Part shown: in pieces, positions 15,356 through 44,321 of the stretch
Layout of the letters: every line of letters begins with the position of its first letter
Numbering within the stretch: the first letter of the stretch is position 1
Assembly (NCBI GenBank): GCA_035645145.1
Contig: DASQNC010000013.1
Span: 1 to 44,321, forward strand
DNA from: Azospirillaceae bacterium
GTDB taxonomy: Bacteria > Pseudomonadota > Alphaproteobacteria > Azospirillales > Azospirillaceae
Length of the DNA stretch: 44,321 nt
Direction of reading: 5' to 3'
The notes under the pieces: generated by a model
Seen by the model: only the letters and a program-made list of their open reading frames with translations
The model's database searches: none
Told to the model about the DNA's origin: nothing
Program-made: the position numbers and the translations under genes

Positions 15356-15769
15356 ATGGACGAGGCGGCGAGGCGGCTTGTGGGCGGATGGCGCCTGTTC
15401 GCGTGGCGGGCCCAAGGCGGCGGACCCCAAGGCGGCGAAACGGTGTGGCACCCGATGGGGCCGGACGCGCGCGGCCATCTGCATTACGGTCCCGACGGAC
15501 TCATGTCGGCCTTCCTGGTCCGCGCCGCCTTTTCCGACGCCACGCCCGACACGCCGGCCCTGGGCAACTTCACCGCCTACTTCGCCCGCTGGTGGATTGA
15601 GGGCGACCGGGTCATCCACGAGGTGCTGGAATCAAGCCAACCCTGGCGGCTGAAGGACCGGCTGGTGCGTGTGATGTCCTGGCAGGGCGAGGATCTGGTC
15701 CTGACGACGCCCGACCAGCACACCGCCAAAGGAACGATGCGCAACATCCTGCACTGGCGCCGGATGTAA
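15356..15769 (+). CDS. Lipocalin-like domain protein
   Basis: A 137-residue protein of the lipocalin-like (PF13924-type) family, which has a small beta-barrel that probably binds a hydrophobic ligand. The family pattern LVGGWRLFAW at the start, GHLHYGPDGLMSAFL in the middle and a C-terminal W-rich segment are visible. There is no signal peptide. A GGAGAGGGG stretch precedes the ATG. It is probably translated from the meaB transcript, though a functional link is not evident. Confidence 0.75.
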   Translation: MDEAARRLVGGWRLFAWRAQGGGPQGGETVWHPMGPDARGHLHYGPDGLMSAFLVRAAFSDATPDTPALGNFTAYFARWWIEGDRVIHEVLESSQPWRLKDRLVRVMSWQGEDLVLTTPDQHTAKGTMRNILHWRRM

Positions 15770-15796
15770 CCGCGCCGGGCCGGGCGGACCGGATGT

Positions 15797-16867
15797 TCAG
15801 CCCCGCCGGACGGGGACGGTCAGGCGGGCAGGGTCCAGCACCCGGCCCAGCTCGTCGAGGTTGACCAGGGCCTGGGGCCGGCGGCCGGCCTCCACCTCGT
15901 GCACCATGGTGGTCAGCCGCCGCAGCAGCGGCGTTTCCAGGCCGTGCCGCTCGGCGATCTCGGGCACCACGCCGACCAGGGTGTCCACTTCGGTTCGCCG
16001 GTTGTGCACCACGATGTCCTGCCACGCCTCGCTATGGGTCTTGGCGCTGCGCCGGTTGTGGGCGGCGATGGCATCCAGCGAAGCGCGCACCCGGCCGGGT
16101 TCGGCGCCCGCCAGGAAGGCATCGGGCTCGAAGCCGTTGAAGCCCTCCGGCGACACCTTCTCCAACATGGCGGTGGTCATGACCTCGACGGCCAGCGCAT
16201 GGAACAGGCGCATGAACTCCGGCCGGTCCAGGCAATCCGCCACCGGATCCGTGGTCAGCGCGGTTGCGAACAGCAGGGCCACGTAGCCGAGCTTGCCCCA
16301 CAGATAGCCCCAGATGTTCGCAGTGGCGAACGCCGTGGGTTCGAACACGGCCAGAAGGTCGCGCAGCTCCTCGATCCGTGGCGTGCGGGTTCCGTCCAGT
16401 TCACCAAGCCCGAGCGCGCCCCGGCCGGCGTAGAGGACGTGTCCCGGGCGCTGGTACAGGGCGCCGAAATTCAGGAAGCCCGCCACGGTCCGCCGGGCCC
16501 CGACCAGTTGCGCGATGTGGCCGGCGTTCAAGCCGTTCTGCAAAGAGACGACACACCCCTCGTCGGAGAGGTGGGCGTAGAGCTGACGCACGGCATCCAC
16601 CGTCTGGTGCGCCCGCACGCACAGGAGGATGCGGTCGTAGGTGCCCGTCACCTCGGTCGGCATCCAAACCGGCGCATGGATCTTGAACGCGCCGGCCGGG
16701 CCGGAGACCTGCAGCCCGACCTCGCGGATGCGCATGACATGCTCGGGATTGGCGTCGACGAACGCCACCGGGTGCCCGGCGCGCTTCAGGTGGGCCCCAA
16801 CGGTGCCGCCGATGGCACCGGCACCCCACACAAGGATTCGACCGTTCAAGCCCTGGCCCTCCGTCAT
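15797..16867 (-). CDS. Ketopantoate reductase (PanE/ApbA) family protein
   Basis: NAD(P)H-dependent 2-hydroxyacid dehydrogenase fold: a Rossmann N-domain with WGAGAIGGTVGAHL and a helical ApbA_C domain (about 190-340). The family member that makes pantoate from ketopantoate is PanE; this one, about 356 residues, is longer than PanE (about 300), so another 2-oxoacid is equally possible. The lysine in LWGKLGY and the asparagine in QNGLN fit the PanE catalytic pattern. I chose ATG 16867 over 16909, because homologues begin just before the Rossmann strand. The ribosome binding site is weak at both. Confidence 0.72.
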   Translation of the reverse strand: MTEGQGLNGRILVWGAGAIGGTVGAHLKRAGHPVAFVDANPEHVMRIREVGLQVSGPAGAFKIHAPVWMPTEVTGTYDRILLCVRAHQTVDAVRQLYAHLSDEGCVVSLQNGLNAGHIAQLVGARRTVAGFLNFGALYQRPGHVLYAGRGALGLGELDGTRTPRIEELRDLLAVFEPTAFATANIWGYLWGKLGYVALLFATALTTDPVADCLDRPEFMRLFHALAVEVMTTAMLEKVSPEGFNGFEPDAFLAGAEPGRVRASLDAIAAHNRRSAKTHSEAWQDIVVHNRRTEVDTLVGVVPEIAERHGLETPLLRRLTTMVHEVEAGRRPQALVNLDELGRVLDPARLTVPVRRG

Positions 16868-31595: not shown

Positions 31596-32489
31596 TCACA
31601 CCCGCGTCTCCTGAACGTACCTGTCGGTCTCGCGAAGAACCGCGACCGCTTCCTTGTGATGGCGCACGGCATAGGCCGAATACAGCACGTCGATGATCGC
31701 GATCTGGCCGATCTTGGCCGTCGTCGCCTCGCGGTACATCTCGCGTTCGAAGGAGTCCGACTGCTCCGAGGTGATCAGCGCGAAATCCGCATGCTTGGTG
31801 ATCGGCGAATTGCGGAAGGATGTGATGCACACCGTCGTGGCCCCCCGCTCCCTCGCCGTCTGAAGCGCACGCACCGTCGACTTGGTCCGCCCGGAGTTGC
31901 TGATCCCGATCGCCAGGCATTTGGCGTCGAGGTTGATGGACGACATCCGCTGCACGCTCTGGTCATGAAAGAACAGGCAGCGCTTGCCGACCCGGACGAA
32001 GCGGATGACGCCGTTCTCCGCCGCGAGCGCCGACGACCCTGTGGCGAAGAAGACGACGAGCTCGGATCGCCCCAACGCGGCGACGACCTGCTCGACGACC
32101 TCCGGCTTGAAGTTGGCCAGGGTCTGGTCGAGCGTTTCGCGCAGCGAGGCGTGGACCTTGCGGATGATGATGTCGAGGGGATCCGACGCCTTGATGTCCT
32201 CGTAGATCTCCCGCGGCAGCGAAGCCGCCGATGCCTGCACATCCCGGCGCGACAATTCCTCGGCGAGCAGGATCTTCATCTGCTGGAAGCTCTCGAGCCG
32301 CAGCTCGCGGACGAACCGCGAGACGGTCGCCTCCGAGACGTTGCACGCCTGCGCCAGCTCCCGGATCGTGAGCGACTTGGTCTTCGCCGGGGACGTCACG
32401 ACATAGGTGCCGATACGGCGCAACGCCGGGTTGAGGTCGGGCAGCCGTTCGCGGATCGCAGCCAGGGTTCCGTCGGGCATGGTCGTCAT
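31596..32489 (-). CDS. RpiR/MurR family transcriptional regulator with SIS domain
   Basis: A sugar-phosphate-sensing repressor or activator of 297 residues. The N-terminal helix-turn-helix (HTH_6) runs from about 1 to 77, with a recognition helix near SEATVSRFVRELR. The SIS domain (about 125-265) has the phospho-sugar binding pattern FFATGSSALAAE and GISNSGRT. ATG 32489 is used. It is the last gene of the operon, after the TRAP genes, and is the candidate regulator of that operon. The expected signal would be a phosphorylated intermediate. Confidence 0.86.
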   Translation of the reverse strand: MTTMPDGTLAAIRERLPDLNPALRRIGTYVVTSPAKTKSLTIRELAQACNVSEATVSRFVRELRLESFQQMKILLAEELSRRDVQASAASLPREIYEDIKASDPLDIIIRKVHASLRETLDQTLANFKPEVVEQVVAALGRSELVVFFATGSSALAAENGVIRFVRVGKRCLFFHDQSVQRMSSINLDAKCLAIGISNSGRTKSTVRALQTARERGATTVCITSFRNSPITKHADFALITSEQSDSFEREMYREATTAKIGQIAIIDVLYSAYAVRHHKEAVAVLRETDRYVQETRV

Positions 32490-32586: not shown

Positions 32587-33885
32587 TCAGAGATACCGAT
32601 ACCACAACGAAAACTCGGGTACGTAGGTGATCACCGCCAGGACGGCCAAGGCCGTGCCGATGAACCAGCCGATGTGGCGCAGCATCGCCGTCAAGGCGAC
32701 GTTGTTCGTCCGGGCGGCGACGTAGAGGTTGGCGGCCATGGGCGGCGTCAGCAGGCCGAGTTCGATGTTCGTGACCAGGATGATGCCGAAATGCACGGGG
32801 TCGATGCCGTAGCGCGCTGCCGCGGGTGCCAGCAGCGGCCCCATCAGCAGCGTGGCGGCATTGCTCTCCATCAGCATGCCGATCAGCAGAAGCACGCCGT
32901 TGACCACCAGCAGGAAGACGACCGGGCTTTCGGTGTAGCCGGAGGCGAACGCCGCGATCGACTGCGGGACCTGTTCGAGAACCATCGCCCGGTTGAAGAT
33001 GCTGGTGAAGCCGATCACGACCAGGATCGCGGCCGAGGTCAGGGCCGCGCGGTGGAACGCCTCCAGGAGCTCGCCGCCGCCCATCATCCGCCCGGCCAGG
33101 GTCACCAGCAGCGCGTAGGCGACGGCGACCGCGGCGGCCTCGGTCGGGGTGAAGACGCCCGAATAGATGCCGCCCAGCACGACGACGGGCAGCAGCATCG
33201 CCGGGATCGACCGTGCCAGCAGGGCAACCGCACCGCCGACGGCCTTCCCGGCGGTCACGGCCCCCGCCGGCCGCCGGTCCTGGCCGCCTTCGTGCCCCCC
33301 GACCAGGACGCGCCGCGCCAGCAGGCCATGGACCACCATGAAAACGAGCATGAACACGGTCCCGGATAGGATCGCCGCAAGGAAGAGCTGCGTGATCGAG
33401 ACACCGACGATCGAGCCGTAGAGGATCAGCGGGATCGACGGCGGGATCAGCACGCCCAGCAGCCCGGCCGACGCGTTGAGCGCGGCCACGTAGCCGGGCT
33501 GGTAGCCGCGCCGGATCATCTCCGGGCCCACGGCCGAACCCATCGCCGCGACCGTGGCGACCGACGATCCGGTGATCGCGCCCATGAGCGCGCTCGCCAG
33601 GATCATGACATGGCCCATGCGGGCGCGCGCCCATCCCAGCACCAAGTCGCAGACGTTGGTGAGCTGGCGGACCAGGCCACCGCGGTTCATGATCTCGCCG
33701 CCCAGGATGAACAGGGGGATCGCGAGCAGCGGAAAGGCCGAGATGGTGTCGATCGTCACCGACGGCAGCACCGACCAGTCGATGCCCCAGGCATCGGCGT
33801 TCGCGATCACGATCAGACTGAAGGCGATGCCGATCGGAACACCGGTCACGAGCAGCGCGAGCAAAAGGAAGGCAACGGCGATCAT
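32587..33885 (-). CDS. TRAP transporter large permease (DctM)
   Basis: The large membrane subunit (432 residues, about 12-13 segments) of a tripartite ATP-independent periplasmic transporter, driven by the sodium or proton gradient. The family motif GGEIMNRGG is near residue 55 and SASAGLLGVLIPPS-like segments are visible in the middle. ATG 33885 overlaps the stop of the small subunit (ATGA). The frame upstream to 34449 is a shadow of the small subunit. Confidence 0.9.
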   Translation of the reverse strand: MIAVAFLLLALLVTGVPIGIAFSLIVIANADAWGIDWSVLPSVTIDTISAFPLLAIPLFILGGEIMNRGGLVRQLTNVCDLVLGWARARMGHVMILASALMGAITGSSVATVAAMGSAVGPEMIRRGYQPGYVAALNASAGLLGVLIPPSIPLILYGSIVGVSITQLFLAAILSGTVFMLVFMVVHGLLARRVLVGGHEGGQDRRPAGAVTAGKAVGGAVALLARSIPAMLLPVVVLGGIYSGVFTPTEAAAVAVAYALLVTLAGRMMGGGELLEAFHRAALTSAAILVVIGFTSIFNRAMVLEQVPQSIAAFASGYTESPVVFLLVVNGVLLLIGMLMESNAATLLMGPLLAPAAARYGIDPVHFGIILVTNIELGLLTPPMAANLYVAARTNNVALTAMLRHIGWFIGTALAVLAVITYVPEFSLWYRYL

Positions 33886-34430
33886 GGCGGGGCGGCCTCC
33901 GGGTCCCCTTGGAAGGACAGGCAGCGCCGGATGTCCGCGGCGGTGTGGAGGAGCACCAGCGCCATTCCCAGCGGCAGGAACACCACCGGCACCGCCACGG
34001 GGGTCCCCAGGTCGATCAGCCGCTCGCCGGACTCGAGCGTGCTGGTCAGGAAGGTCCAGCCGGTGACCAGGTACACCGTCGCGAACACCAGGGTGGCCGC
34101 CGACACCGCGAAGCGTGACAGGCGGCGCACCGTCGGGCTTCCGAGCGTGTCGATCACGTCGACGGCGATGTGCGATCCCGTGTAGGAGCACATCGCCGCA
34201 CCGACGAAGGTCAGCGGCGACATGGCGATCACGGCCCATTCGCCGAGGCTGGGCAGGGGCAGGTTGAAGTACCGGACGGCGACGCTCTCGATCGTCGCCA
34301 GCAGCATGACCGCCAGGGCCGATATGCAGAGCAGGCGCTCGAAGCGGAACACCCGTCCCTCGAAGGCGTCCAGCCGCGACGCGCCGCCGGACGCCATGGA
34401 TCCCCCGACGATCCCGGTCGAGGCGCTCAT
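33882..34430 (-). CDS. TRAP transporter small permease (DctQ)
   Basis: The small membrane subunit (182 residues, four segments). VRYFNLPLPSLGEWAVI is the typical DctQ segment after the first helix. Start and stop overlap with its neighbours by four bases on both sides, so the three TRAP genes are translationally coupled. Confidence 0.87.
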   Translation of the reverse strand: MSASTGIVGGSMASGGASRLDAFEGRVFRFERLLCISALAVMLLATIESVAVRYFNLPLPSLGEWAVIAMSPLTFVGAAMCSYTGSHIAVDVIDTLGSPTVRRLSRFAVSAATLVFATVYLVTGWTFLTSTLESGERLIDLGTPVAVPVVFLPLGMALVLLHTAADIRRCLSFQGDPEAAPP

Positions 34431-35446
34431 CCCCCGCTCGCCCTCGCAACCTCTTGCCGCAGGGCTTGGATGCGCTCGGCGCCGTAACGCGGCGTCAGTT
34501 GGTCCCAGATGGTTTGGCCGATCCGGACGAACTCGGCCGTCGCCTCCGGGGTCAAGTGGGTGATCTTGAGACCCGCCTGTTCGAGCTTGGCCAGGAACTC
34601 CTCGTTGATCCCGCGATTCTTCTGGATCTGGTTCCGGCTCGCTTCCTCCGCCGCATCGACCAGGATCCTCCGGTCGTCCTCGGACAGGCGCCTCCAAACC
34701 TGCGAGCTCGCGCTGAACGTCCCCATGGCATAGACGTGGTGCAGCGGGGTCATGTAGCGCTGGGTCTCGAAGAGCCGCGACTCATAGGTCAGGGAAGGGC
34801 CATTGTCCTGGCCGTCGACCGTCCCCTGCTGGAGGGCGGTGAAGAGTTCCGGGAACGGCATGGCCACCGCCTGGGCGCCGGCCGCCTCGAAGAACCCCTT
34901 GATGGCCGCCGAGCTCGGCACACGCAGCTTGAGGCCTTGCAGGTCCGCCGGCTTCTCCACCGGACGGACCGAGTTGGTCACGGCCCGGAACTCCAGCTCG
35001 TAGAAGGCCAACGTCTCGATGTTGTTCTTCGCGAGCGCCTCGCGCAGCGTCTTCTGAATCGTTCCCTGCGGATTGTAGAAGACGGCGTCGACCGTCTTGT
35101 AGTCGGTCGCGATGAACGGCAGGTAGTGGATGTCGAGCAGGGGGTCGAGCCCGGCGAGCGACCCCGGACTCAGCAGGGCCATGTCGAGCGCCCCGCGCGA
35201 GAGGTCGCGCGCGTTCGCCTCCACGCCGCCGAGCTGGCTGTTGGGGAACAGCGTGACGGCGATCCGCCCGTCGGTGCGCTCGCCCACCAGCTTGGCGAAT
35301 TCCTGGCCGGCCTGGTCGATCGGGCTGTTGATCGCCGCGTAGTGCGCGAGGCGGAGCTTCCTCTGCTGCTGTGCCGAGGCGGGCGATCCCAGCGACATCA
35401 GCGCGAATGCCGCCATCGCGGCCAAGGCGGTCGTCTTGCGGTTCAT
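34427..35446 (-). CDS. TRAP transporter substrate-binding protein (DctP)
   Basis: The periplasmic binding protein, 339 residues with a Sec signal (cut near SPASAQQQ). The arginine in LKLRVPSS and the region around MPFPELFTALQQGTVDGQDN are the DctP landmarks; that arginine usually forms a salt bridge with a carboxylate of the ligand, so an acid is transported. GGGAGGGGACA lies before the ATG. The gene is 60 nt after the dioxygenase gene in the operon. Confidence 0.9.
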   Translation of the reverse strand: MNRKTTALAAMAAFALMSLGSPASAQQQRKLRLAHYAAINSPIDQAGQEFAKLVGERTDGRIAVTLFPNSQLGGVEANARDLSRGALDMALLSPGSLAGLDPLLDIHYLPFIATDYKTVDAVFYNPQGTIQKTLREALAKNNIETLAFYELEFRAVTNSVRPVEKPADLQGLKLRVPSSAAIKGFFEAAGAQAVAMPFPELFTALQQGTVDGQDNGPSLTYESRLFETQRYMTPLHHVYAMGTFSASSQVWRRLSEDDRRILVDAAEEASRNQIQKNRGINEEFLAKLEQAGLKITHLTPEATAEFVRIGQTIWDQLTPRYGAERIQALRQEVARASGG

Positions 35447-35506
35447 TGTCCCCTCCCTGTCGTTTTCGTTGTGTCCGTCCGGTCCGGAACCGGACGGCCA
35501 AGGGCG

Positions 35507-36298
35507 TCAGACGACCTGCGGCTCGGTCACCCTGCTGCCGGTGCGGGCGCTGAACGGGCGCTCGTCGCGCTGGACGGGCGTGAAATCGTGATGCGCGATG
35601 AACTCGGCACGCTTCGGGTTGCGGAGGTGGTTCGACACCGCCGAGTAGGTGACGTAGAGGATGCGACGCGGCAGCGGCGTGATGTTGCCCGCGGAGCCGT
35701 GGACCGAGTTGCCGTGGAACAGCAGGACGCTGCCCGCCTTCCCGGACGGGATCGCGATGTCGTCCTGGCTCTTGATCACGCGCTCGACGTCCGCGCGGGT
35801 CATCCAGCGCCGCCCGTTGACGTCGGGGGCGTGGATCATCCCGAGCTTGTGGCTGCCGGGAACGAACATGAGCGCGCCGTTCGACGGCCCCACATCGTCG
35901 AGGAAGATGGCGATGTTCATCGCGCGCGGCTCCGGCATGCCGTCGTCGGGGTGCCAGGTCGCGAAATCCTGGTGCCAGGGGAACGGGTCGCCGTCGAACG
36001 CGACCTTCGGGTTCACCTTGAACTGGTGGATGTAGATGGGCTCGCCGAAGATCTGCTGGACCGGATCGTGGAGCCGGGCATCGGTGGTCAGCGCGCGGAA
36101 CAGTTCGCTGTAGCGATGGCAGCCGAACGCAGTTCTGGGCGCACCGTTCTTCTCGCGCCAGATCTCCGGCCGGTGATGCTCGAACACCTCGACGGACTCC
36201 GCGCGAAGCAGGTCGACTTCCGCGGGCGTGAAGACGCCGGGGATGACAAGGAACCCATCCCGATCGTATTGGGCGAGCTGCTGGGCATTCAGTTTCAT
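35507..36298 (-). CDS. Phytanoyl-CoA dioxygenase (PhyH) family protein
   Basis: An Fe(II)/2-oxoglutarate oxygenase fold of 263 residues. The iron-binding facial triad is visible as HQD in WHQDFATWHPD and H in SVHGSAGN, and the 2-oxoglutarate-binding Arg is likely in PLPRRILYVTY. Substrates of the family vary from acyl-CoA to ectoine and phosphonates; here the neighbours point to a carbohydrate acid. ATG 36298 is chosen; a purine-rich GGAAGGAAA sits about 11 nt before it, and the extension to 36376 has no domain. It lies between the kinase and the TRAP genes. Confidence 0.82.
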   Translation of the reverse strand: MKLNAQQLAQYDRDGFLVIPGVFTPAEVDLLRAESVEVFEHHRPEIWREKNGAPRTAFGCHRYSELFRALTTDARLHDPVQQIFGEPIYIHQFKVNPKVAFDGDPFPWHQDFATWHPDDGMPEPRAMNIAIFLDDVGPSNGALMFVPGSHKLGMIHAPDVNGRRWMTRADVERVIKSQDDIAIPSGKAGSVLLFHGNSVHGSAGNITPLPRRILYVTYSAVSNHLRNPKRAEFIAHHDFTPVQRDERPFSARTGSRVTEPQVV

Positions 36299-36366
36299 TG
36301 GAGGGTTTCCTTCCCTTGGAGAGGTTTCCTGGTCCCGGGCACGGCCACGCCCAACGGCGGAGCCCG

Positions 36367-37713
36367 TCATGCCCATCCGTCCCCCCGGCGCGCCGCGGAG
36401 AAGTAGTCCGGGCCGCCGTTCTGGCCGGCCTTCAGCAGCACCTGCGCGCCGTCGAGGCGGCTTTCGCCCGCGTGGATGCGCAGCAGCGGCTCCTGGCTTT
36501 CGACATTGACCGCGACGATGCTCAAGGCCTCGACACCGAGCGCGCGCATCGTCCGGCTCGCGGTGTCGCCGCCGGCCAGGAGGAAGCGTGCGATCCGCGT
36601 CCGGCTCGTGACGCGCCGGAGCACCGCGCCGTAGATCCCGCCGATCACCGCGGAGGACTCGCGCCCGATCCGCTCGAACAGGTCTTTGCCGGCAGGGATG
36701 CCGTCGTCATCGGGGCCCGCCGCGGTGTAGACGACGATGTTCCGCCCCTGCGAAGCCGCAGCGCCGACCTCCGCCGACATCGCGTCGATCACCGCCGCCT
36801 CGCCGCGTTGGGGGAGTTGTTCGATCGGCAGCCGCACGACAGCCCAACCCTCCGCGCGGGCATGGGCGATCTGCTCGGCGGTGCGCGGCGTGCAGCTTCC
36901 CGAAAGGACGAGGAGGCTGTCGACCGCGCCGGGCGGCCCGCCATTGGCCTGCGGCGGGGCTTCCCTGCCGGCCGCCATGTGCGTCGCGAGCCCCGCGGAG
37001 AGGCCGTGCGCGGACACCGCGAACGTCGGCCGCTCCCCGGATGCCCGCCAGACGCTCGCGGCGATGCGCACCAGATCGTCCGGCTCGAGCGCGTCGCAGA
37101 CCACGGCGCCCGCAACGTCGCCGCGGAGCATCCCATCGAGCCCCCGGGCGTCGCCGCGCAGGACACGGAAGTCGCAAAGCCGGATCGGCCAGTCCGTCTG
37201 CTCGGCCAGGTGCCGGCGCAGGTCCGCCTCGCGCATGGGCGTCGCCGGGTGCCGGGACATGCTCGGATGCCGGTCGAGCCGGTGCACCTCGGACTTGTAC
37301 TCGGCGAAATGATGGCCGAAGGCCGTGTACCGGCCGAAATCCGGATGGGCGGCCACCACCGGCACGGGCTGTGCCCCGAAGAGGTCGCGCGCGACCTCAA
37401 GCACCGGGCCGAAACTCCCCCGTTGGGGCGAGGAGTCGAAGGTCGAGCAGATCTTGTACTGCACCACCCGGCAGCCCAGGTCCCGCAGCCGCTCCAGCGC
37501 GGGGCGCACCTCGCGCGTCATGTCCCGGGGGGCGAGCGAGCGGGAGATGCCGGCGATGCCAACCACGTCGAGCCTGTCGAGGTGGGGTGCCAACCGCTCG
37601 GGCGCGGGCGTGTCGACGAACAACAACCCGCCGAGGCCGCGCCGGTGGAATTCGAGCAGGTTTGCCGAGGCGCCGGTGAAATCGTCCGCGTAGAAGCCGA
37701 TCGGGACGTTCAT
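36367..37713 (-). CDS. DUF1537 four-carbon acid sugar kinase family protein (OiaK/OtnK-like)
   Basis: An ATP-dependent kinase of 448 residues. The N-terminal domain begins with IGFYADDFTGASANLL, the family's DDxTG motif that binds the substrate, and the C-terminal nucleotide-binding domain has FLLAGGDTASRTMRAL. The family phosphorylates threonate, erythronate, 3-oxo-tetronate or 3-oxo-isoapionate. In D-apiose pathways the last type (OiaK) acts just before a RuBisCO-like decarboxylase (OiaX), which matches the gene order here. GAAGGGGAAGG precedes ATG 37713; 23 nt separate it from the RuBisCO-like gene. Confidence 0.85.
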   Translation of the reverse strand: MNVPIGFYADDFTGASANLLEFHRRGLGGLLFVDTPAPERLAPHLDRLDVVGIAGISRSLAPRDMTREVRPALERLRDLGCRVVQYKICSTFDSSPQRGSFGPVLEVARDLFGAQPVPVVAAHPDFGRYTAFGHHFAEYKSEVHRLDRHPSMSRHPATPMREADLRRHLAEQTDWPIRLCDFRVLRGDARGLDGMLRGDVAGAVVCDALEPDDLVRIAASVWRASGERPTFAVSAHGLSAGLATHMAAGREAPPQANGGPPGAVDSLLVLSGSCTPRTAEQIAHARAEGWAVVRLPIEQLPQRGEAAVIDAMSAEVGAAASQGRNIVVYTAAGPDDDGIPAGKDLFERIGRESSAVIGGIYGAVLRRVTSRTRIARFLLAGGDTASRTMRALGVEALSIVAVNVESQEPLLRIHAGESRLDGAQVLLKAGQNGGPDYFSAARRGDGWA

Positions 37714-37736
37714 GGCCGCCTTCCCCTTCCTTCGCC

Positions 37737-38966
37737 CTAAGCGAAGGCGCTGATCGCGCGCCGCAGCTCCGGCAAGGTGTTCGAGAACTCGTCCAGCGGG
37801 ACGCCGCGCATCGCCGCCTCCCACGCCTGGCGGATGCTCTCGACCCCGGCCCGGATGCCGTCCGGGTGGGCGATGATGCCGCCTCCGCAGGCGTAGATCA
37901 GGTCGACGGAACCAAGCGCCTGGTACGTCTTCGATGCCTGCAGGACGGTCTGCTTGGACGAGAAGACGGGCATCACCCGCATCGGCGCGCCGCCGTCGGC
38001 GAAGACCGGCTCCAGGCACGCCCGGGCCGAGCGGATGACGGACTCGTTCGTCTCGTAGAACTTGTTGTCGATCCCATTCACGTGCAGGTGGTCGGCGCCG
38101 GCGATGCGGAAGAACTTGTGCCAGGCCAGGAAGTCCACGCCGACCGACGGCCCCCGGTTCAGGATCCCCCAGCCGTTGCGGTGGCCATGGATCGGAAGCG
38201 AGGCATGCCGGCGCAGGTGCGCCAGCCCGGTCACACCGACCCAGTTCAGGCTCACCATCACGCAACTGCCGCCGAGCGCGGCCACCTGGTCGTGGCGGCG
38301 CAGCATCTGGTCGATCTCGCCGGTGATGTTGAACGCGTACATCACGCGGCGGCCGGTCCTCTCCTCATGGCGGCGCAGCACCGCCATCACCGCCTCGGCA
38401 CGCCGCTCGAACGGGCAGTGCGGCGGGTCGGCCATCAATTCGTCGTCCTTGATGAAGTCGATCCCGCCCTCCGCGAGCCGGGCCACCAGATCGGCGGTCT
38501 CCTCGGGGGTCAGCCCGACGCTCGGCTTGACGATCGTGCCGATGAGCGGCCGCCCGGTGGCGCCCAGAAGCTCGCGCGTGCCGTCGATACCGAATTGCGG
38601 GCCGGCGTAGGCCTGCCGCAATGCCGACGGCAACGCGACATCCAGCAGGCGCAGCGAGGTGACCGAGGCGACGTCGAACAGATTGCCGGCGACGGTCGCC
38701 AGTATGTTCGGCAGAGACGGACCGGTGTTCTCGAGCGGCCAGGACAGCGTGACGTCGGCTCTTCGGACCACGCGGCCGTCCCTGGATGCGGTCTCCGTTT
38801 CCGCAAGCCGCTCGATGCGGGCGCCATGGCGTCCGGCGATGTCGGCGCGCTCGCCCGGGATGCGCACGAAGGTTGCGGTCGACGACTCCCCAGCCATCTC
38901 GGTCGCGGCGGCCACTGGATCGCCGGACGTTTCGATGGCGTAGGTCGCGGAGAAGCGGTCGTTCAC
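37737..38966 (-). CDS. RuBisCO-like protein (form IV; OiaX-like)
   Basis: A RuBisCO large-subunit homologue of 409 residues that is not a CO2-fixing RuBisCO. The carbamate and metal site is kept (K173, D175, E176 in FIKDDE), as are the lysine in TIVKPS (K147), H262-R263, H295, the loop-6 lysine K302 and the phosphate-binding GGG (361-363). The second lysine of the KPK motif is changed to Ser149, which removes a residue needed for carboxylation in true RuBisCO. Together with the DUF1537 kinase this fits a phospho-3-oxo-acid decarboxylase or isomerase. GTG 38966 has GAGGACGGG ahead. It is the first gene of the operon. Confidence 0.88.
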   Translation of the reverse strand: MNDRFSATYAIETSGDPVAAATEMAGESSTATFVRIPGERADIAGRHGARIERLAETETASRDGRVVRRADVTLSWPLENTGPSLPNILATVAGNLFDVASVTSLRLLDVALPSALRQAYAGPQFGIDGTRELLGATGRPLIGTIVKPSVGLTPEETADLVARLAEGGIDFIKDDELMADPPHCPFERRAEAVMAVLRRHEERTGRRVMYAFNITGEIDQMLRRHDQVAALGGSCVMVSLNWVGVTGLAHLRRHASLPIHGHRNGWGILNRGPSVGVDFLAWHKFFRIAGADHLHVNGIDNKFYETNESVIRSARACLEPVFADGGAPMRVMPVFSSKQTVLQASKTYQALGSVDLIYACGGGIIAHPDGIRAGVESIRQAWEAAMRGVPLDEFSNTLPELRRAISAFA

Positions 38967-38994
38967 GGCCCGTCCTCGTCAGTTCGTCATTGCA

Positions 38995-39034
38995 TGAAAT
39001 TTCCATTCATTGCGACCAGTCAAAAGAAATTTCA
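38995..39034 (-). promoter_or_regulatory. Paired palindromic operator, candidate RpiR site of the RLP operon
   Basis: TGAAATTTC (38995-39003) and GAAATTTCA (39026-39034) are the two halves of the palindrome TGAAATTTCA, each nearly a complete palindrome itself. Their centres are 31 bp apart, about three helix turns. They lie 29-68 nt upstream of the GTG start of the RuBisCO-like gene in the only AT-rich patch of the area. RpiR-type regulators bind such A/T-rich palindromes; the link is inferred from position and symmetry. Confidence 0.5.
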
Positions 39035-39378
39035 TTACCTGTACTCTTTTGCTTCCGGACCGGCATGGGCCGGCCGTGCCCTATCGATCCCGCCCGTGCG
39101 CAAGGGAACGCCAACCAGCCGGGCATGGAGGCGGTGAGCGCATCCGTGTCCTTTGGAACCATGGGAAACGACGGCCCGTCGGGCTTTCCGCGAAGGCAGG
39201 ATCCGCCCGGCCGCACTTCGTCGGGTTTGGATATGCCCGTCGAGGCGATCGGCGCATGCCGCCGGCCAATCCCCTCGCGGGTCCCGTCATTCCTGGTTCG
39301 GCTCCCAACCGACCCCTACCGGCTGTTCAACTCGCCAGGATCAGGGGCATCGATCATCAAGACCCGAGGTCTCAAGCC
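39035..39378. other. Intergenic region between the RLP operon and the NIPSNAP remnant
   Basis: No gene or domain is recognised in this 344-nt region on either strand. Open frames cross it without a family match. It could be the decayed front of a gene or simply a long leader. The AT-rich patch ends near 39055, so the RLP operon promoter probably lies to its left. Confidence 0.4.
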
Positions 39379-39735
39379 GTGATCACCGGCTTCATCCGCT
39401 ACGAGATCAACCCGTTCCGGGTCGATGCCTTCGAACAGCAGGCCCGCACCTGGGGACAGGCCGTTCCGCGCAACGGGGCGGACTTGATCGGCGACCAAGC
39501 GCCCCACGAGGGGCCGATCGTCCACGGTGGCCCACGGCGTCGACAACATCGAGAGCCTCGCGGCCTACGAAGCCGACCGGACCCGGCTGCGAAGCGACCC
39601 ACAGGGCGCGGGAACTACGAATTCGCCAAGCGCGAAGGCACCATCCGCCGCGAGGAGCGGATTTCCTGCGTCTCGCCTCGGCACCGCACACGTCCCTGGT
39701 CCGGCCGTGGCCGCCCCTACGAGAACCATTCGCCC
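39379..39735 (+). pseudogene. NIPSNAP family protein, frameshifted remnant
   Basis: A NIPSNAP-like sequence can be read only in pieces. From GTG 39379, one frame gives VITGFIRYEINPFRVDAFEQ... up to APHEGPIVHGG (about 39531); the next frame gives VAHGVDNIESLAAYEADRTR (39527-39613); then the first frame returns with NYEFAKREGTIRREE (about 39610-39663); and the third frame gives FLRLASAPHTSLVRP to about 39735. These pieces join in the right order to a full-length NIPSNAP protein, so at least three indels disrupt it. Its end overlaps the LysR stop on the other strand. Confidence 0.72.
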
Positions 39736-40634
39736 CTGTCCCGGATGAATTCCTGTTTCAGGTGTTCGACAAGTTGATGGACGGCCGGCCGGCCACTGGT
39801 TCGGGCGTGCGTGACGATGGACAGGGGGATCGGCTCGCCCACCTGGATGGGAAGCATCACCACGTCCAGCAGCACATGCCGGAGATACGACGGCCCCGCC
39901 ACGACCCCGACATTCCCGCGCACCGCAGCGACCAGCTCCTCGGACGAGCCGACCACCACAGCGGGCGGCTCGGTCCACGGCAGCAGCGGCCGGAACCACT
40001 CCGCCGTCTTGTCGGACGTCCGGTAGCAAAGCCGGTGGCCTGCCAAGTCGTCCAGGCCCTTCGGCATGCCGTAACGGTCCAGGTACGCGCGGGCGGCGAA
40101 CAGGGCAATGCGAACCACGCCCCGCGCGTGGACCTTGAGTTCGGGGTCGTTCGGCAACGGCCCGAAGCGCAACGCGATGTCGGCCTCGCCGGACGCCAGA
40201 TCGGCCATTGCATTGCCGGGAAGGGTCTCCACCGTCACGCCCGAATGCGTGAACAGGAAGCCAGCCAGGCGGGGAACGACCCAATTCGCAAGCAGCCCCT
40301 GGGTCGCGGCGATCGTGACGATCTCGATCCCGCCCGCCCCCACCTGCCGCAGTGCGCGCTCGACCAGGGCCTCCATGCTCGCCGCCGTGTCCGCGAAAAT
40401 CATCCCCTCCGGCGTGAGCGCGGTTCCGGTGCGTGTCCGCTCGATCAGCTTGGCGCCAACCTCCTCCTGCAGGAACCCGACCCGGCGCGACACCGTCGCG
40501 ACGTTCAGGCCGACTTGGCGGGCGGCCGGCAAGACACCGCCGTGACGTCGTATGGCCTGCAAAGTCGCCAAATTGTCCCATTGCCCCCAAAGCGCCGGAA
40601 GCTCCCTGGTTCTGAGGGCCTTGCGCATTTTCAT
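39717..40634 (-). CDS. LysR family transcriptional regulator
   Basis: A 305-residue regulator. The helix-turn-helix (about 15-75) reads GVLPAARQVGLNVATVSRRV, with threonine-valine-serine where many LysR proteins have alanine-valine-serine. The effector domain runs from about 95. ATG 40634 has no strong ribosome binding site; ATG 40628 is an alternative. It is divergent from the small gene at 40716 across an 81-nt AT-rich gap, a typical place for its own operator. It may control the tct genes or the small genes. Confidence 0.87.
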   Translation of the reverse strand: MKMRKALRTRELPALWGQWDNLATLQAIRRHGGVLPAARQVGLNVATVSRRVGFLQEEVGAKLIERTRTGTALTPEGMIFADTAASMEALVERALRQVGAGGIEIVTIAATQGLLANWVVPRLAGFLFTHSGVTVETLPGNAMADLASGEADIALRFGPLPNDPELKVHARGVVRIALFAARAYLDRYGMPKGLDDLAGHRLCYRTSDKTAEWFRPLLPWTEPPAVVVGSSEELVAAVRGNVGVVAGPSYLRHVLLDVVMLPIQVGEPIPLSIVTHARTSGRPAVHQLVEHLKQEFIRDRGEWFS

Positions 40635-40715
40635 ATGGCGCTGCGAATTCTCGGAGGTCCGAAACGGTTTTATCTAAAATACAACATTTGCATACGATTC
40701 TAGGCGGAACATGGT

Positions 40716-41132
40716 ATGCAATCCGAAATTCAGCAGAATGGCGGCACCTCCACCGGAATGCTTGCCAGTACAGGGGAAGACGGGCCGGCGCGCTTACGGA
40801 CGCGCGCACAGGATCCGGCAATCGCCGCACTTCGAAACCTGCAACACGCCATCTCGGAAGCCGACCGGCTGGACGGCCCCGGCGGGCCGCCCAAGGCCGT
40901 TATTTCCGCACTGTTGGCCGCCGACCATGCCTTCGTGAGCACCGCGGCCACGACATGGCGTGGCGCCATGCGCAAGCTGGGCTATGCGCTGGCACAAACC
41001 AGCCCCGAGGAGCGCGGGGAACATCCCACACGGTATTTCGTCTCGGCGGCGGAGGATTTGCAACGCATGTCCGCCGACACAAGGGGCCGGCCAGTCCGCC
41101 TGCGCCTGAAGTCCCGGGGGCGGAAACTCTGA
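40716..41132 (+). CDS. Hypothetical protein, all-helical
   Basis: A 138-residue protein I do not recognise. After a flexible Ser/Thr/Gly-rich start of about 35 residues it appears helical, with a conserved-looking patch around ALLAADHAFVSTAATTWRGAMRKLGYALAQTSP. No membrane segment, signal or cysteine motif. ATG 40716 follows GGCGGAAC; an overlapping ATG at 40711 in another frame is not favoured. It forms a pair with the gene that starts 1 nt after its stop. Confidence 0.6.
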   Translation: MQSEIQQNGGTSTGMLASTGEDGPARLRTRAQDPAIAALRNLQHAISEADRLDGPGGPPKAVISALLAADHAFVSTAATTWRGAMRKLGYALAQTSPEERGEHPTRYFVSAAEDLQRMSADTRGRPVRLRLKSRGRKL

Positions 41133-41133
41133 A

Positions 41134-41397
41134 ATGCCGCCGGCCGTCCCATCCTCGCCTCGACAGCCCGCAGCCATACAGGTGGGCGATACGGTGCGGA
41201 TCCCCGGCATGGAAGCGGTGACCACGACCGCGATGCCCGACGGACGGTCCCGCCATTCCCGCGGTCCCGCCCTTGGAACGGTGATCGCACATCTTCCCGG
41301 CGGCAGGGTCCGGGTCACCGCCCCGTTCGGCAGCCTCGTCCTGGACAAGGTCGGCCTGATCCGGGTCTCCGGCGATGTCGCCGGAAACAGGGCGTAA
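41134..41397 (+). CDS. Hypothetical small protein, SH3-like barrel
   Basis: An 87-residue protein that starts right after the previous stop (TGA-A-ATG). The sequence QVGDTVRIPGMEA and GTVIAHLPGGRVRVTAPFGSLVLD is beta-rich and reminiscent of a KOW or SH3-like barrel. No known family is recognised. Co-translation with the preceding gene is likely. It converges on tctA, 71 nt apart. Confidence 0.55.
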   Translation: MPPAVPSSPRQPAAIQVGDTVRIPGMEAVTTTAMPDGRSRHSRGPALGTVIAHLPGGRVRVTAPFGSLVLDKVGLIRVSGDVAGNRA

Positions 41398-41468
41398 CGA
41401 ATACTCTTGCCGGAACCCCTGCCTGGTATGGGGGCGGGCCGCCCGCATGGACCGACCCGCCCACCGTA

Positions 41469-42968
41469 TCAGGTGCCGGACAGCCCCTTGCGCCAACCGA
41501 ACGCGCGGGCCGCGACCAGAAGCGCGGCGACAAGCGCGATCGCGGTCAGCAGTCCCTGGGCGGCCGGCCCGGTGACGAAGACCGTGTAGTCCCCGTCCGA
41601 AACGGTCAGCGCCCGGCGGAAGCTCGTCTCCAACCGGTCGCCAAGCACCAGGGCCAGGAGCAAGGGGGCCACGTCGAACGAGAATTTCCGCAGCACGTAC
41701 CCGATCGCCCCCGCCCCGGCCATCAGCATGAGGTCCAGGGCCGAGGCGTCGACCGCATAAACACCGATGATCGAGATCAGCAGGACGAGCGGGCTCAGGA
41801 TGCCGCTCGGGATCCGCAGCAGGCTGGTGAACAGGCCGACGAACGGCAGGTTCAGCAGGAGCAGGATCAGGTTGCCCAGATACATGCTGGCGATCAGGCC
41901 CCAGAACACCTGCGGATGGTCGCTGATGAGCTGGGGTCCCGGCTGCACGCCGTGCACGAGCATGGCCGAGAGCAGGATGGCGGTCGCCGGGATGGCCGGA
42001 ATGCCCAGGACCAGCAGCGGGATCATGGACGATCCCGTCGTCGCGTTGTTCGCCGTCTCCGGCCCCGCCACGCCCGCGATGGCGCCCTTGCCGAACTCCT
42101 CCGGCCGCTTCGAAAGGCGCTTCTCCAGGGCGTAGGACACGAACGTGGACACGATGTGCGAGATGCCCGGCACGATCCCGAACACGAACCCGACGACCGA
42201 GCCGCGCGCGATGGCGGGCGCCGCCTCCTGCAGATCCGCGCGCCGCGGCAGCAGGTCCCGCAGCCGGGGCGGCTTGGGCGCCTCCAGCCGTTTCTCCTCC
42301 AGGTTCAGCAGGATTTCCGACACGCCGAACAGGCCGATGGCGATGGGCACGAACCCCAGCCCCTCGGTCAGGGCAAGCGAGCCGAAGGTGAACCGCGGAT
42401 ACGCCGTGAGCTGGTCGAGCCCGACGGTCGCAAGCGCCAGGCCGAGCAGCACCATGGCCAGCGTCTTGACCGCGGAACCCGAGCCGATGAACGCGATCAC
42501 CAGCAGCGCCGCCGACATGAGCACGAATTCGGCGGCGGGGCCCACGGCGAGCATGGCCCTGGCCAGCGGGGGCGCGAAGAAGATCAGGCCCAGCACCGAC
42601 AGGCTGCCGCCGATGAAGCTGCCGACCGCGGCGATCATCAGGGCGGGACCCGCCCGCCCGCGGCGGGCCATCTCGTATCCGTCCAGGCAGGTGACCACAC
42701 TCGCCGCCTCGCCCGGGATGCGGACCAGGATCGAGGTGGTCGAGCCGCCGTACATGGCCCCGTAGAAAATCCCCGCGAGCATGATGATCGCGGTTTCGGG
42801 CGGCAGGCTGAAGGTGAACGGCAGCAGCAGCGCCATCCCCGCGAGCGGACCCAGACCCGGAAGGACGCCGACGACCGTGCCCCAGAAGCAGCCGATGAGG
42901 CACCAGAGCAGGTTCGTCGGCGTGAGCGCCACCCGGAATCCGTCGAGGAGATGGCCGAGATTGTCCAT
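41469..42968 (-). CDS. tctA: Tripartite tricarboxylate transporter permease TctA
   Basis: The large membrane subunit of a TTT transporter (499 residues, about 12 segments), the family's normal length. The family signature GVLPGLGPLAGMALLLP is at about residues 34-50, and YGGSTTSILVRIPGE follows. Substrates of this family are citrate and other carboxylates. ATG 42968 is used. It is 7 nt downstream of tctB. Confidence 0.92.
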   Translation of the reverse strand: MDNLGHLLDGFRVALTPTNLLWCLIGCFWGTVVGVLPGLGPLAGMALLLPFTFSLPPETAIIMLAGIFYGAMYGGSTTSILVRIPGEAASVVTCLDGYEMARRGRAGPALMIAAVGSFIGGSLSVLGLIFFAPPLARAMLAVGPAAEFVLMSAALLVIAFIGSGSAVKTLAMVLLGLALATVGLDQLTAYPRFTFGSLALTEGLGFVPIAIGLFGVSEILLNLEEKRLEAPKPPRLRDLLPRRADLQEAAPAIARGSVVGFVFGIVPGISHIVSTFVSYALEKRLSKRPEEFGKGAIAGVAGPETANNATTGSSMIPLLVLGIPAIPATAILLSAMLVHGVQPGPQLISDHPQVFWGLIASMYLGNLILLLLNLPFVGLFTSLLRIPSGILSPLVLLISIIGVYAVDASALDLMLMAGAGAIGYVLRKFSFDVAPLLLALVLGDRLETSFRRALTVSDGDYTVFVTGPAAQGLLTAIALVAALLVAARAFGWRKGLSGT

Positions 42969-42975
42969 TGCGGCC

Positions 42976-43431
42976 TCAGAGCGGGAGGATGCCGGCGGGC
43001 AGGCCGACGCCGAGCACCCGTGTGAAGACGGACCAGGCGACCGCCGAGGCCGCGATGCCCAGAAGCCCGCAGCGCAGGAAACCGTAGTCGCCGAGCAGCC
43101 GCGCCCAGACCGCCGTCGCCACCGCGAGGGTGACGGGGGCACCGACCGGCTCGAAGGCAAGCCCGACGAGGCTGAGCGTCGCCAGTGCCCCCCATGTCCT
43201 GGCACCGCCCAGGCCGACCGCCCCCCCGGTCCCCCGCTGGCACCATGCCGACACCGCGCAGCCGCTGCCGGCCAATGCGAGCAGCACACCGATCGCCAGC
43301 GGCATGAACCCCGGCCCCGGCAGGGCCACACTGCCGGCCGGCATGCGCGAGGCGAGATATGCGAGCGTCGCCCCGACCCCGGCCAGGGCACAGCCCAGGG
43401 CGGCCTCGCCGGCCTTGCGGTCGGCCGTCAC
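42976..43431 (-). CDS. tctB: Tripartite tricarboxylate transporter small subunit TctB
   Basis: The small membrane subunit (about 151 residues, four segments). GTG 43431 starts one base after the tctC stop. The protein has the pattern of TctB: a GxGFMPLAIG segment after the first helix and a LLGIAASAVAWSVF helix at the end. The open frame continues upstream inside tctC and is not used. Confidence 0.82.
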   Translation of the reverse strand: MTADRKAGEAALGCALAGVGATLAYLASRMPAGSVALPGPGFMPLAIGVLLALAGSGCAVSAWCQRGTGGAVGLGGARTWGALATLSLVGLAFEPVGAPVTLAVATAVWARLLGDYGFLRCGLLGIAASAVAWSVFTRVLGVGLPAGILPL

Positions 43432-43432
43432 G

Positions 43433-44321
43433 TCAGTTCGCCTTCTTCTCGGCGCCGATCGCCCGGGCGACTTCGCCCAGGGCGGCGAGTTCGTTGCGGA
43501 TGGCCTTGTCCATCGCGGCGCCGTCCTTGACGGCGTGGACGGCCCCCTGCGCGGCCATGACGTCCTTGAAGCGGGGATCGTTCGCGGCCTCGGTGAAGAC
43601 CTTGGCAAGGGTTGCCAAGCGATCGGCGGGCACGCCCTTGGGTGCGATCAACCCCCACCACAGCACCGTCTCCTCCGCGCCGATGCCGAGGCTGGACAGG
43701 CCGGACGCCCGGGGAAGGGCCTCGTTGCCCTCGGCCGACGTAAGCATCAGGCATTTGGCCGCCCCGGCCTTGGCGTGGGGCAGGATCGGCGGCAGCGAGC
43801 CACCGTAGAAGGTCACGTGCCCGCCCAGGAAGTTCTTGGCCGTTTCGCCCGCACCCCCGAACGGAACCGGGCGGACCTTCAGCTCCAGCTTGCGGAAGAT
43901 CCGTTCCGCGGCGAGCTGCATGGTCCCGCCAACCCCGTCGTTGCCGTAGGTGAACTTGCCCGGGTTCGCCTTGATATGGGCCACCATCTCCTGGGCGTTG
44001 GCCGCCGGGAAGTCGGGCTGGGCGCACAGCACGTAGGACGAGTAGCCGATGGACAGCAACGGTGCGTAGCTGTCCGGCGTGTAGCCGACGGGCAGCGTGT
44101 GGGGGCTGGTGGTGAGCGGCGAGTTCCAGACGAACCCCAGCGTGTGGCCATCGGGCTTCGCCGCGGAAATCAGGGCGGTCCCGATCGTCCCGCCGCCACC
44201 GGCCTTGTTTTCCACGACCACCTTCTGCCTCAGGCCGGCCTCGGCCAGCTCGGCGAGCCGCCGTGCGAAGACATCGGTGCCACCGCCGGGCGGGGCCGGC
44301 ACGATCAACGTGATGGGCCGC
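43433..44321 (-). CDS. tctC: Tripartite tricarboxylate transporter substrate-binding protein TctC (5' end outside the window)
   Basis: The extracytoplasmic binding protein (Bug family). The portion in the window starts in the conserved RPITLIVPAPPGGGTDVFAR and runs to the end; only the signal peptide and about 25-35 residues are missing. The GGGGTIGTALISAAKPDGHTL segment is the second family motif. A partial gene: its start codon lies beyond 44321. First gene of tctCBA on the minus strand. Confidence 0.92.
   Translation of the reverse strand, partial: RPITLIVPAPPGGGTDVFARRLAELAEAGLRQKVVVENKAGGGGTIGTALISAAKPDGHTLGFVWNSPLTTSPHTLPVGYTPDSYAPLLSIGYSSYVLCAQPDFPAANAQEMVAHIKANPGKFTYGNDGVGGTMQLAAERIFRKLELKVRPVPFGGAGETAKNFLGGHVTFYGGSLPPILPHAKAGAAKCLMLTSAEGNEALPRASGLSSLGIGAEETVLWWGLIAPKGVPADRLATLAKVFTEAANDPRFKDVMAAQGAVHAVKDGAAMDKAIRNELAALGEVARAIGAEKKAN

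Follow-up and report, generated by a model that had tools for sequence, protein, structure and literature searches.

A PhyH-family dioxygenase as a predicted partner of a RuBisCO-like protein and a DUF1537 kinase in an Azospirillaceae operon

What is the role of an iron-dependent oxygenase in an operon with a RuBisCO-like protein (RLP), a kinase and an uptake system? The question is raised by a 44,321-nt stretch of DNA from an Azospirillaceae bacterium (assembly GCA_035645145.1, contig DASQNC010000013.1, from a 3.9-Mb genome), the whole of which is referred to as the window below. In the window, genes for an RLP, a DUF1537 kinase, a PhyH-family Fe(II)/2-oxoglutarate dioxygenase and a tripartite ATP-independent periplasmic (TRAP) transporter follow one another on the minus strand and are succeeded by a gene for an RpiR-family regulator. 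Carter and colleagues are said to have described in 2018 a D-apiose catabolism that uses OiaK and OiaX, and an earlier interpretation made from the DNA letters (the sequence-only reading) proposed that PhyH could supply the 3-oxo group needed by a kinase/RLP pair of this type. We here find that PhyH is the sole oxidising enzyme detected in the operon and that, judged by gene order and phylogeny, a distinct subfamily of RLPs and kinases has it as a conserved partner. A search of the literature did not bring up a description of an RLP and DUF1537 kinase combined with a PhyH dioxygenase, though one may still be in print.

A gene order shared with Caballeronia

When species genomes were scanned with the RLP, at least 594 stretches were matched, and the gene content of the best 80 loci was determined by tblastn at 1e-6, with matches below 60 bits not counted. 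The same order of RLP, kinase, PhyH and RpiR genes was found in two betaproteobacteria, Caballeronia telluris (locus L139) and C. udeis (L140), with identities to the window proteins of 71 and 69% for the RLP, 57 and 56% for the kinase, and 68% for both PhyH and RpiR. PhyH is therewith found between kinase and DctP in one alpha- and two betaproteobacterial genomes. In the other 78 of the best 80 loci, whose RLPs are at most 60% identical to that of the window, tblastn did not find PhyH, and it is also absent from 20 RLP neighbourhoods of the window's own family, in which the kinase lies about 1.1 kb or less from the RLP. Searches with PhyH itself covered 82 genomes of the order, 385 of the class, 398 of the phylum and 349 of the Caballeronia family (the sets overlap), and all PhyHs listed outside the window and the two Caballeronia are at most 56% identical to the window protein.

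The phylogenies agree with the gene order. The three RLPs form one clade with an SH-aLRT support of 100 (quick method), the three PhyHs one clade with a support of 99/98, and the three kinases one clade with a support of 100 in a tree that was calculated by FastTree only and came with a long-branch warning. In the PhyH tree, EctD, a PhyH linked to a nonribosomal peptide synthetase and the PhyH of L259 are on very long branches, and their positions were not used. The neighbourhood comparison suggested by the sequence-only reading thus shows each of the three RLPs of the clade with a PhyH next to it, and it is the recurrence of the gene order in three genomes, the lack of PhyH elsewhere and the agreement of the clades that argue for a conserved partnership. 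The TRAP genes do not follow this pattern, as DctP and DctM of Caballeronia are only 27–31% identical to those of the window and constitute a non-orthologous transporter. Compared with the 56–71% identity of the other components, this indicates that the alpha- and betaproteobacterial lineages share the enzymes and the regulator, whereas the transporter has been exchanged.

The operon begins with the RLP gene (37737–38966, minus strand like all following genes; 409 aa, GTG start), followed after 23 nt by the gene for the kinase of the four-carbon acid sugar (DUF1537) type (36367–37713, 448 aa), after another 68 nt by the PhyH gene (35507–36298, 263 aa) and after 60 nt by the gene for the solute-binding protein DctP (34427–35446, 339 aa). 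The genes for the small permease DctQ (33882–34430) and the large permease DctM (32587–33885) follow with overlaps of 4 nt each at DctP/DctQ and DctQ/DctM (DctQ and DctM are fused in C. telluris), and 97 nt further lies the gene for the RpiR-family regulator with its SIS domain (31596–32489). All Pfam assignments are above the gathering scores, namely RuBisCO_large with 234 and RuBisCO_large_N with 44 bits, SBD_N/NBD_C of the DUF1537 kinase with 185/91, PhyH with 122, DctP with 242, DctQ with 73, DctM with 302, and HTH_6/SIS of RpiR with 50/67. Coordinates and Pfam thus match the six minus-strand genes from RLP to DctM, with gaps of 23–68 nt and ATGA overlaps, that the sequence-only reading had listed, and the conserved unit extends one gene beyond the interval delimited there, to RpiR. 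As the same order recurs in both Caballeronia loci, the arrangement is more than a chance neighbourhood.

Upstream of the RLP gene, a promoter/operator-like stretch (38967–39060, minus strand) contains the palindrome GAAATTTC twice, at 38996 and 39026 and thus 30 bp apart, with a TTTGACT between the two copies. There is no further copy in the window, for which simple composition predicts a count of 0.07. The upstream regions of all three operons align around a common TTTGACT block, and the palindromes are not conserved letter for letter in the Caballeronia operons. Still further upstream and on the same strand, a LysR regulator and a TctC/TctB/TctA tripartite transporter are encoded (39717–44320).

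Other observations concern the distribution of the RLP family. RLPs with 50–54% identity to that of the window are encoded on haloarchaeal plasmids, which means that the family crosses domains, and many of the best 80 loci are from Acidobacteriota. In genome G081, the RLP gene (L036:9028–10302) is broken by one TAG; about 26 kb from it, the same contig has a second RLP gene, which is free of internal stops.

RLP, kinase and the oxidising enzymes of related loci

Among curated models, the window RLP is closest to OiaX (NF042437, 428 bits) and the kinase to OiaK (NF042436, 316 bits), both well under the cut-offs of 700, and the C. telluris proteins behave similarly (433 and 332 bits). For the RLP, this shortfall says little by itself, since nine other RLPs scored against the OiaX model also remain below the cut-off (404–472 bits). 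The kinase scores lower than four other RLP-linked kinases (of L052, L053, L250 and L146), which reach 473–575 bits with the OiaK model, and it can be described as OiaK-like but far under the cut-off. A form III RuBisCO was rejected (TIGR03326, 258 bits versus a cut-off of 497), as was a methionine-salvage enolase MtnW, for which two models gave 179 and 140 bits versus cut-offs of 409 and 513.6. With at most 179 bits for MtnW-type models compared with 428 for OiaX, the RLP is far from the methionine-salvage group, in line with the sequence-only reading. In the PDB, 3nwr is matched with 382 bits and other RLPs with 207 bits or less.

The residues K147, K173, D175, E176, H262, R263 and K302 of the RLP are the same in 109/109 other RLPs, and H295 is the same in 107 of them, both exceptions (Q) being annotated OiaX sequences. 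We take these positions to have the roles known from RuBisCO, i.e. carbamylation lysine, metal ligands and loop-6 lysine, and a chemistry with a carbamylated lysine is likely kept in the window RLP. At other positions, the clade of three is unique: S28 and A31 replace a Q and a G of all 109 other RLPs, including the two annotated OiaX, R40 replaces a T (108/109), and K or R at position 338 replaces G (105) or A (4). S28 and A31 presumably belong to the E60 loop segment of RuBisCO. For position 338, S337-K338-Q339 was matched by motif to S379-G380-G381 of RuBisCO, but the HMMER alignment to 6hun is two residues off, and the equivalence of K338 to the G380 region is therefore uncertain.

Which oxidising enzymes accompany other RLPs? 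A query set was searched in 110 RLP loci, not including the window, up to a distance of 8 kb from the RLP, and 90 of them gave one match or more. More than half of the loci (57/110) encode a homologue of a PGDH_C-type protein that we take to be ApnO, the putative apionate oxidoisomerase. Gfo/Idh/MocA relatives are present in 17, short-chain dehydrogenases/reductases (SDRs) in 16, VOC proteins in 12, 3-hydroxyisobutyrate-dehydrogenase relatives in 10, DXR-II-like oxidoreductases in 2, a TauD relative in 1 and PhyH in 2 loci, the latter being the two Caballeronia operons. The SDR count drops to 14 if identical RLPs are counted once, as two pairs of loci share the same RLP and all four are in this class; of the 20 loci with none of the set, several are cut by contig ends. 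Within 8 kb in both Caballeronia loci, no oxidising enzyme of the set other than PhyH was matched, and in the window the same set matches RLP, kinase and PhyH only, with neither an ApnO homologue nor an SDR, which is why PhyH can be named the only oxidising enzyme found in the operon. The absence of ApnO from the window, noticed in the sequence-only reading, also applies to the entire genome, in which no homologue was matched at 1e-5 while a positive-control record was found; the C. udeis genome likewise gave no match, again with the control detected. Of the DXR-II-like oxidoreductase that accompanies other PhyHs (see below), the window's genome contains just a 34% identical stretch (E 9e-10). 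The idea that PhyH carries out the oxidising step stands in so far as it is the only match to an oxidising query in the window, where related loci carry ApnO or an SDR.

Like the D-apiose reference cluster of Rhizobium etli CFN 42 with its annotated oiaX, the window has an RLP gene adjoining a DUF1537 kinase gene. It differs in that the query search found no ApnO homologue, no TPI-like/RpiB-like isomerase and no Gfo/Idh/MocA relative, in that it has PhyH and a TRAP transporter where the reference has an ABC transporter, and in that RLP and kinase are below the curated OiaX/OiaK cut-offs. The TPI-like gene of this reference cluster, presumably an L-erythrulose-1-phosphate isomerase, has one 38% match in the window's genome, which is perhaps the housekeeping TpiA. 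The loci with RLP, kinase and SDR (R. etli NXC12, A. tumefaciens CG920, A. oryzae) share with the window the RLP/kinase pair and a nearby oxidising enzyme other than ApnO, but there it is a dehydrogenase and not an oxygenase.

Two of the surveyed loci have unusual compositions. In L184 (8036–15030), the RLP is present without a DUF1537 kinase match and is flanked by two SDRs and two TRAP solute-binding proteins, and a nearby gene resembles, by eye, a beta-keto acid cleavage enzyme. In Ramlibacter (L177), whose kinase comes next in similarity to that of the window (46%), a TauD/TfdA-like dioxygenase, recognised by eye (15415–16293), lies about 3 kb from the RLP-linked kinase and may represent a second oxygenase pairing.

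The dioxygenase, its relatives and the transporter

The window PhyH has the iron motif WHQD (H109, D111) and the distal H200. Its closest curated model is that of the ectoine hydroxylase EctD (TIGR02408), with 170 bits versus a cut-off of 336.5, whereas an EctD encoded beside ectA and ectB reaches 383 bits. In comparison with the EctD signature F-x-W-H-S-D-F-E-T-W-H-x-E-D-G-M/L-P, as given in an excerpt of PMC5924519, the window sequence FPWHQDFATWHPDDGMP has three mismatches (S>Q, E>A, E>D), and no ect gene is among the neighbours scanned. By score and by the excerpted signature, an ectoine hydroxylase is thus ruled out. Its acyl-CoA-type relative in the PDB, human PHYHD1, is matched with only 34 bits versus 188 for the best match. 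By these scores, neither of the groups that the sequence-only reading had considered contrary to its proposal is supported. The best PDB matches are a set titled “phytanoyl-CoA dioxygenase” (7dzz and others), leucine hydroxylase and EctD.

With EctD, the window PhyH shares the sequence family, the iron motif and residues of the binding site: of the product contacts Q127, H144, T149, W150, R280 and Leu284 that an excerpt of PMC6890836 lists for EctD, the alignment retains the first five, and Leu284 is exchanged for Ile. Because these listed contacts are kept, the substrate is likely a small carboxylic acid. EctD hydroxylates C5 of ectoine, which is next to the carboxylate-bearing carbon. On L-proline it acts at C3, in beta position to the carboxyl carbon, according to the same excerpt (PMC6890836). 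By homology at about 37% identity, such a position would be the one at which a chemistry of the OiaK/OiaX type needs its ketone. The PhyHs of the operons nevertheless have features of their own, as the window protein differs from 57–59 of 59 relatives at G59, F106, P107, R163, R164 and D180, with F106 and P107 adjoining the iron motif (W and Q in 59/59 relatives) and G59 being A in 57/59. As judged from the alignments, RLP and PhyH are hence both changed near their expected active sites, although some of the private changes may be drift, since there are three sequences from just two lineages. An AlphaFold2 model of PhyH from a three-row alignment was set aside (pLDDT 38).

The wider PhyH family mostly has another context. 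Among 47 PhyH loci, the window included, a DXR-II-like oxidoreductase is encoded in 29 and an FCD regulator in 21, and nothing in the other 46 loci clustered with the window's RLP or kinase. Further PhyH loci have the DXR-II-like oxidoreductase in 9/12 cases and an SDR plus TRAP transporter after PhyH in 2/12 (Burkholderiaceae). The gene calls in these neighbourhoods were made by a GC3-based script that missed some genes; in L110 and L120 the PhyH itself is uncalled though tblastn finds it. The widespread, mostly alphaproteobacterial module of FCD-type regulator, PhyH and DXR-II-like (DRL_cat/SAF) oxidoreductase, e.g. L051:11238–15035, sometimes additionally contains a 3-hydroxyisobutyrate-dehydrogenase relative, and we know of no characterisation of it. 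Its PhyHs are 43–56% identical to that of the window, but they lack the RLP/kinase cluster and have W, Q and A where the operon PhyH has F106, P107 and G59. Its oxidoreductase matches Brucella DXR-II (3upl, E 1e-57) and Pfam DRL_cat; the DXR-II sister families DLO1 and DLO2 are called uncharacterised in an excerpt of PMC3847144. In two loci of one family from another class (L246:5257–7879 and L247:6409–8142), PhyH and the DXR-II-like oxidoreductase are followed by an amidohydrolase resembling N-acyl-D-amino-acid deacylase (Pfam Amidohydro_3 in L246, by eye in L247).

The transporter gives few clues to the substrate. The second-best PDB match of the window DctP is 7bbr (E 2e-46), titled a sugar acid binding protein, which we regard as weak support. 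The C. telluris DctP was modelled by AlphaFold2 (22 rows, pLDDT 86), and the model is closest to 4oan (54% identity, Z 44.9, root-mean-square deviation 1.5 over 308 residues), a structure that was reportedly modelled with the 2-hydroxy-2-methyl-3-oxo acid 2-acetolactate and that was not used to assign a substrate. A review (PMC5812351) counts 2-acetolactate as one of the TRAP ligands newly found in Vetting 2015. As the window DctP is just 27% identical to that of C. telluris, the likeness to 4oan concerns the Caballeronia protein alone. The latter is 43–51% identical to solute-binding proteins of the RLP-SDR loci L175, L184 and L204 and the PhyH-SDR loci L238 and L239, all of which were reached via RLP or PhyH and not via the binding protein. 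This likeness was dropped as substrate evidence because 12 neighbourhoods chosen by the Caballeronia-type binding protein alone have neither RLP nor PhyH, and only one of them (L264) carries an SDR of the type that follows PhyH.

A candidate pathway and its alternatives

How could these components work together? In the pathway that we favour, the operon would be controlled by RpiR, and the TRAP transporter would import a small 2-hydroxy acid that is branched at C2. PhyH would oxidise C3 of this acid with O2 and 2-oxoglutarate, thereby occupying the slot that is held by the putative oxidoisomerase ApnO or an SDR in related loci, the kinase would phosphorylate the terminal hydroxyl, and the RLP would decarboxylate the 3-oxo acid phosphate to a ketose phosphate. 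We infer the position C3, the order of steps and the substrate class, and give the assignment as a whole a little less than an even chance. If C3 is already hydroxylated, a single PhyH turnover could yield the ketone via a gem-diol, as the sequence-only reading suggested, and this one-step route is possible and chemically reasonable. An acid with a methylene at C3, such as those of the xyloisosaccharinate type, would require two turnovers. The more specific version, in which PhyH itself forms the 3-oxo group from a carbinol for the kinase and the RLP, no nicotinamide dehydrogenase takes part and the substrate is a 2-branched acid other than 3-oxo-isoapionate, appears unlikely.

Several aspects weigh against an oxidation of C3 by PhyH. 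The unit of PhyH and RLP is known from three genomes only, the 12 neighbourhoods chosen by the binding protein lack it, and the roles of all members are predicted by homology and context. The PhyH relatives mostly stand beside separate dehydrogenases, and because of this pairing the family may well make alcohols. C. telluris moreover has an ApnO homologue (70%) on another contig, and DXR-II-like oxidoreductases are encoded elsewhere in both Caballeronia genomes (66 and 55%), so that the oxidising enzyme could there come from outside the operon; in the window's genome, the searches covered ApnO, the DXR-II-like family and the TPI-like isomerase, and another dehydrogenase may be encoded elsewhere.

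PhyH could instead modify a different position of the molecule, e.g. by hydroxylating a C2-methyl to a C2-hydroxymethyl group or by removing an O-methyl group, while a dehydrogenase from elsewhere oxidises C3. The separate dehydrogenases beside its relatives, which may make alcohols rather than ketones, and the DXR-II-like enzymes of Caballeronia would suit this alternative, and the private F106 and P107 beside the iron motif fit a changed position or substrate. No dehydrogenase was found, however, in the window operon, nor by the query set in the Caballeronia operons, although 90/110 other RLP loci have a protein of this set close by, and we consider such a side-position activity rather unlikely, though the most probable of the alternatives. 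That the operon serves the D-apiose/3-oxo-isoapionate pathway, with PhyH merely standing in for ApnO, is less probable still. OiaX and OiaK are indeed the best curated models and ApnO is lacking in the genome, but the scores of 428 and 316 bits are far from 700 (which none of the nine other RLPs reaches either), S28, A31 and K/R338 are found where 109 other RLPs have Q, G and G/A, and the TPI-like isomerase has no better match than 38%. Moreover, apionate is converted to 3-oxo-isoapionate by a shift in the carbon skeleton, which would be unexpected of an oxygenase. Of the comparison with OiaX and OiaK drawn in the sequence-only reading, the nearest models are thus retained and the apiose pathway is not supported; with cut-offs missed by both proteins and private RLP changes near the expected active site, the substrate is probably not 3-oxo-isoapionate. 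An independent role of PhyH, such as the formation of a signalling or protective compound, with the gene merely caught up in the operon, seems the least probable. The stable context of the wider family with FCD regulator and DXR-II-like oxidoreductase, free of anything that clusters with the window's RLP or kinase, speaks for such a role; against it stand the agreeing clades and the constant position of the gene, which follows that of the kinase and precedes that of DctP in one alpha- and two betaproteobacterial genomes.

The oxidation of C3 by PhyH, followed by phosphorylation and decarboxylation, therefore remains our favoured explanation, and the operon suggests an as yet undescribed oxygen-dependent route for the use of small branched acids. 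With its own regulator and transporter, it is a small and directly testable system for finding the substrate, and the module of PhyH and DXR-II-like oxidoreductase can be tested with the same acids. The evolution of RuBisCO chemistry has a test case in the RuBisCO-like proteins, one subfamily of which is here tied to an oxygenase. Should PhyH form the 3-oxo acid, this would be a new way of setting up a RuBisCO-type decarboxylation.

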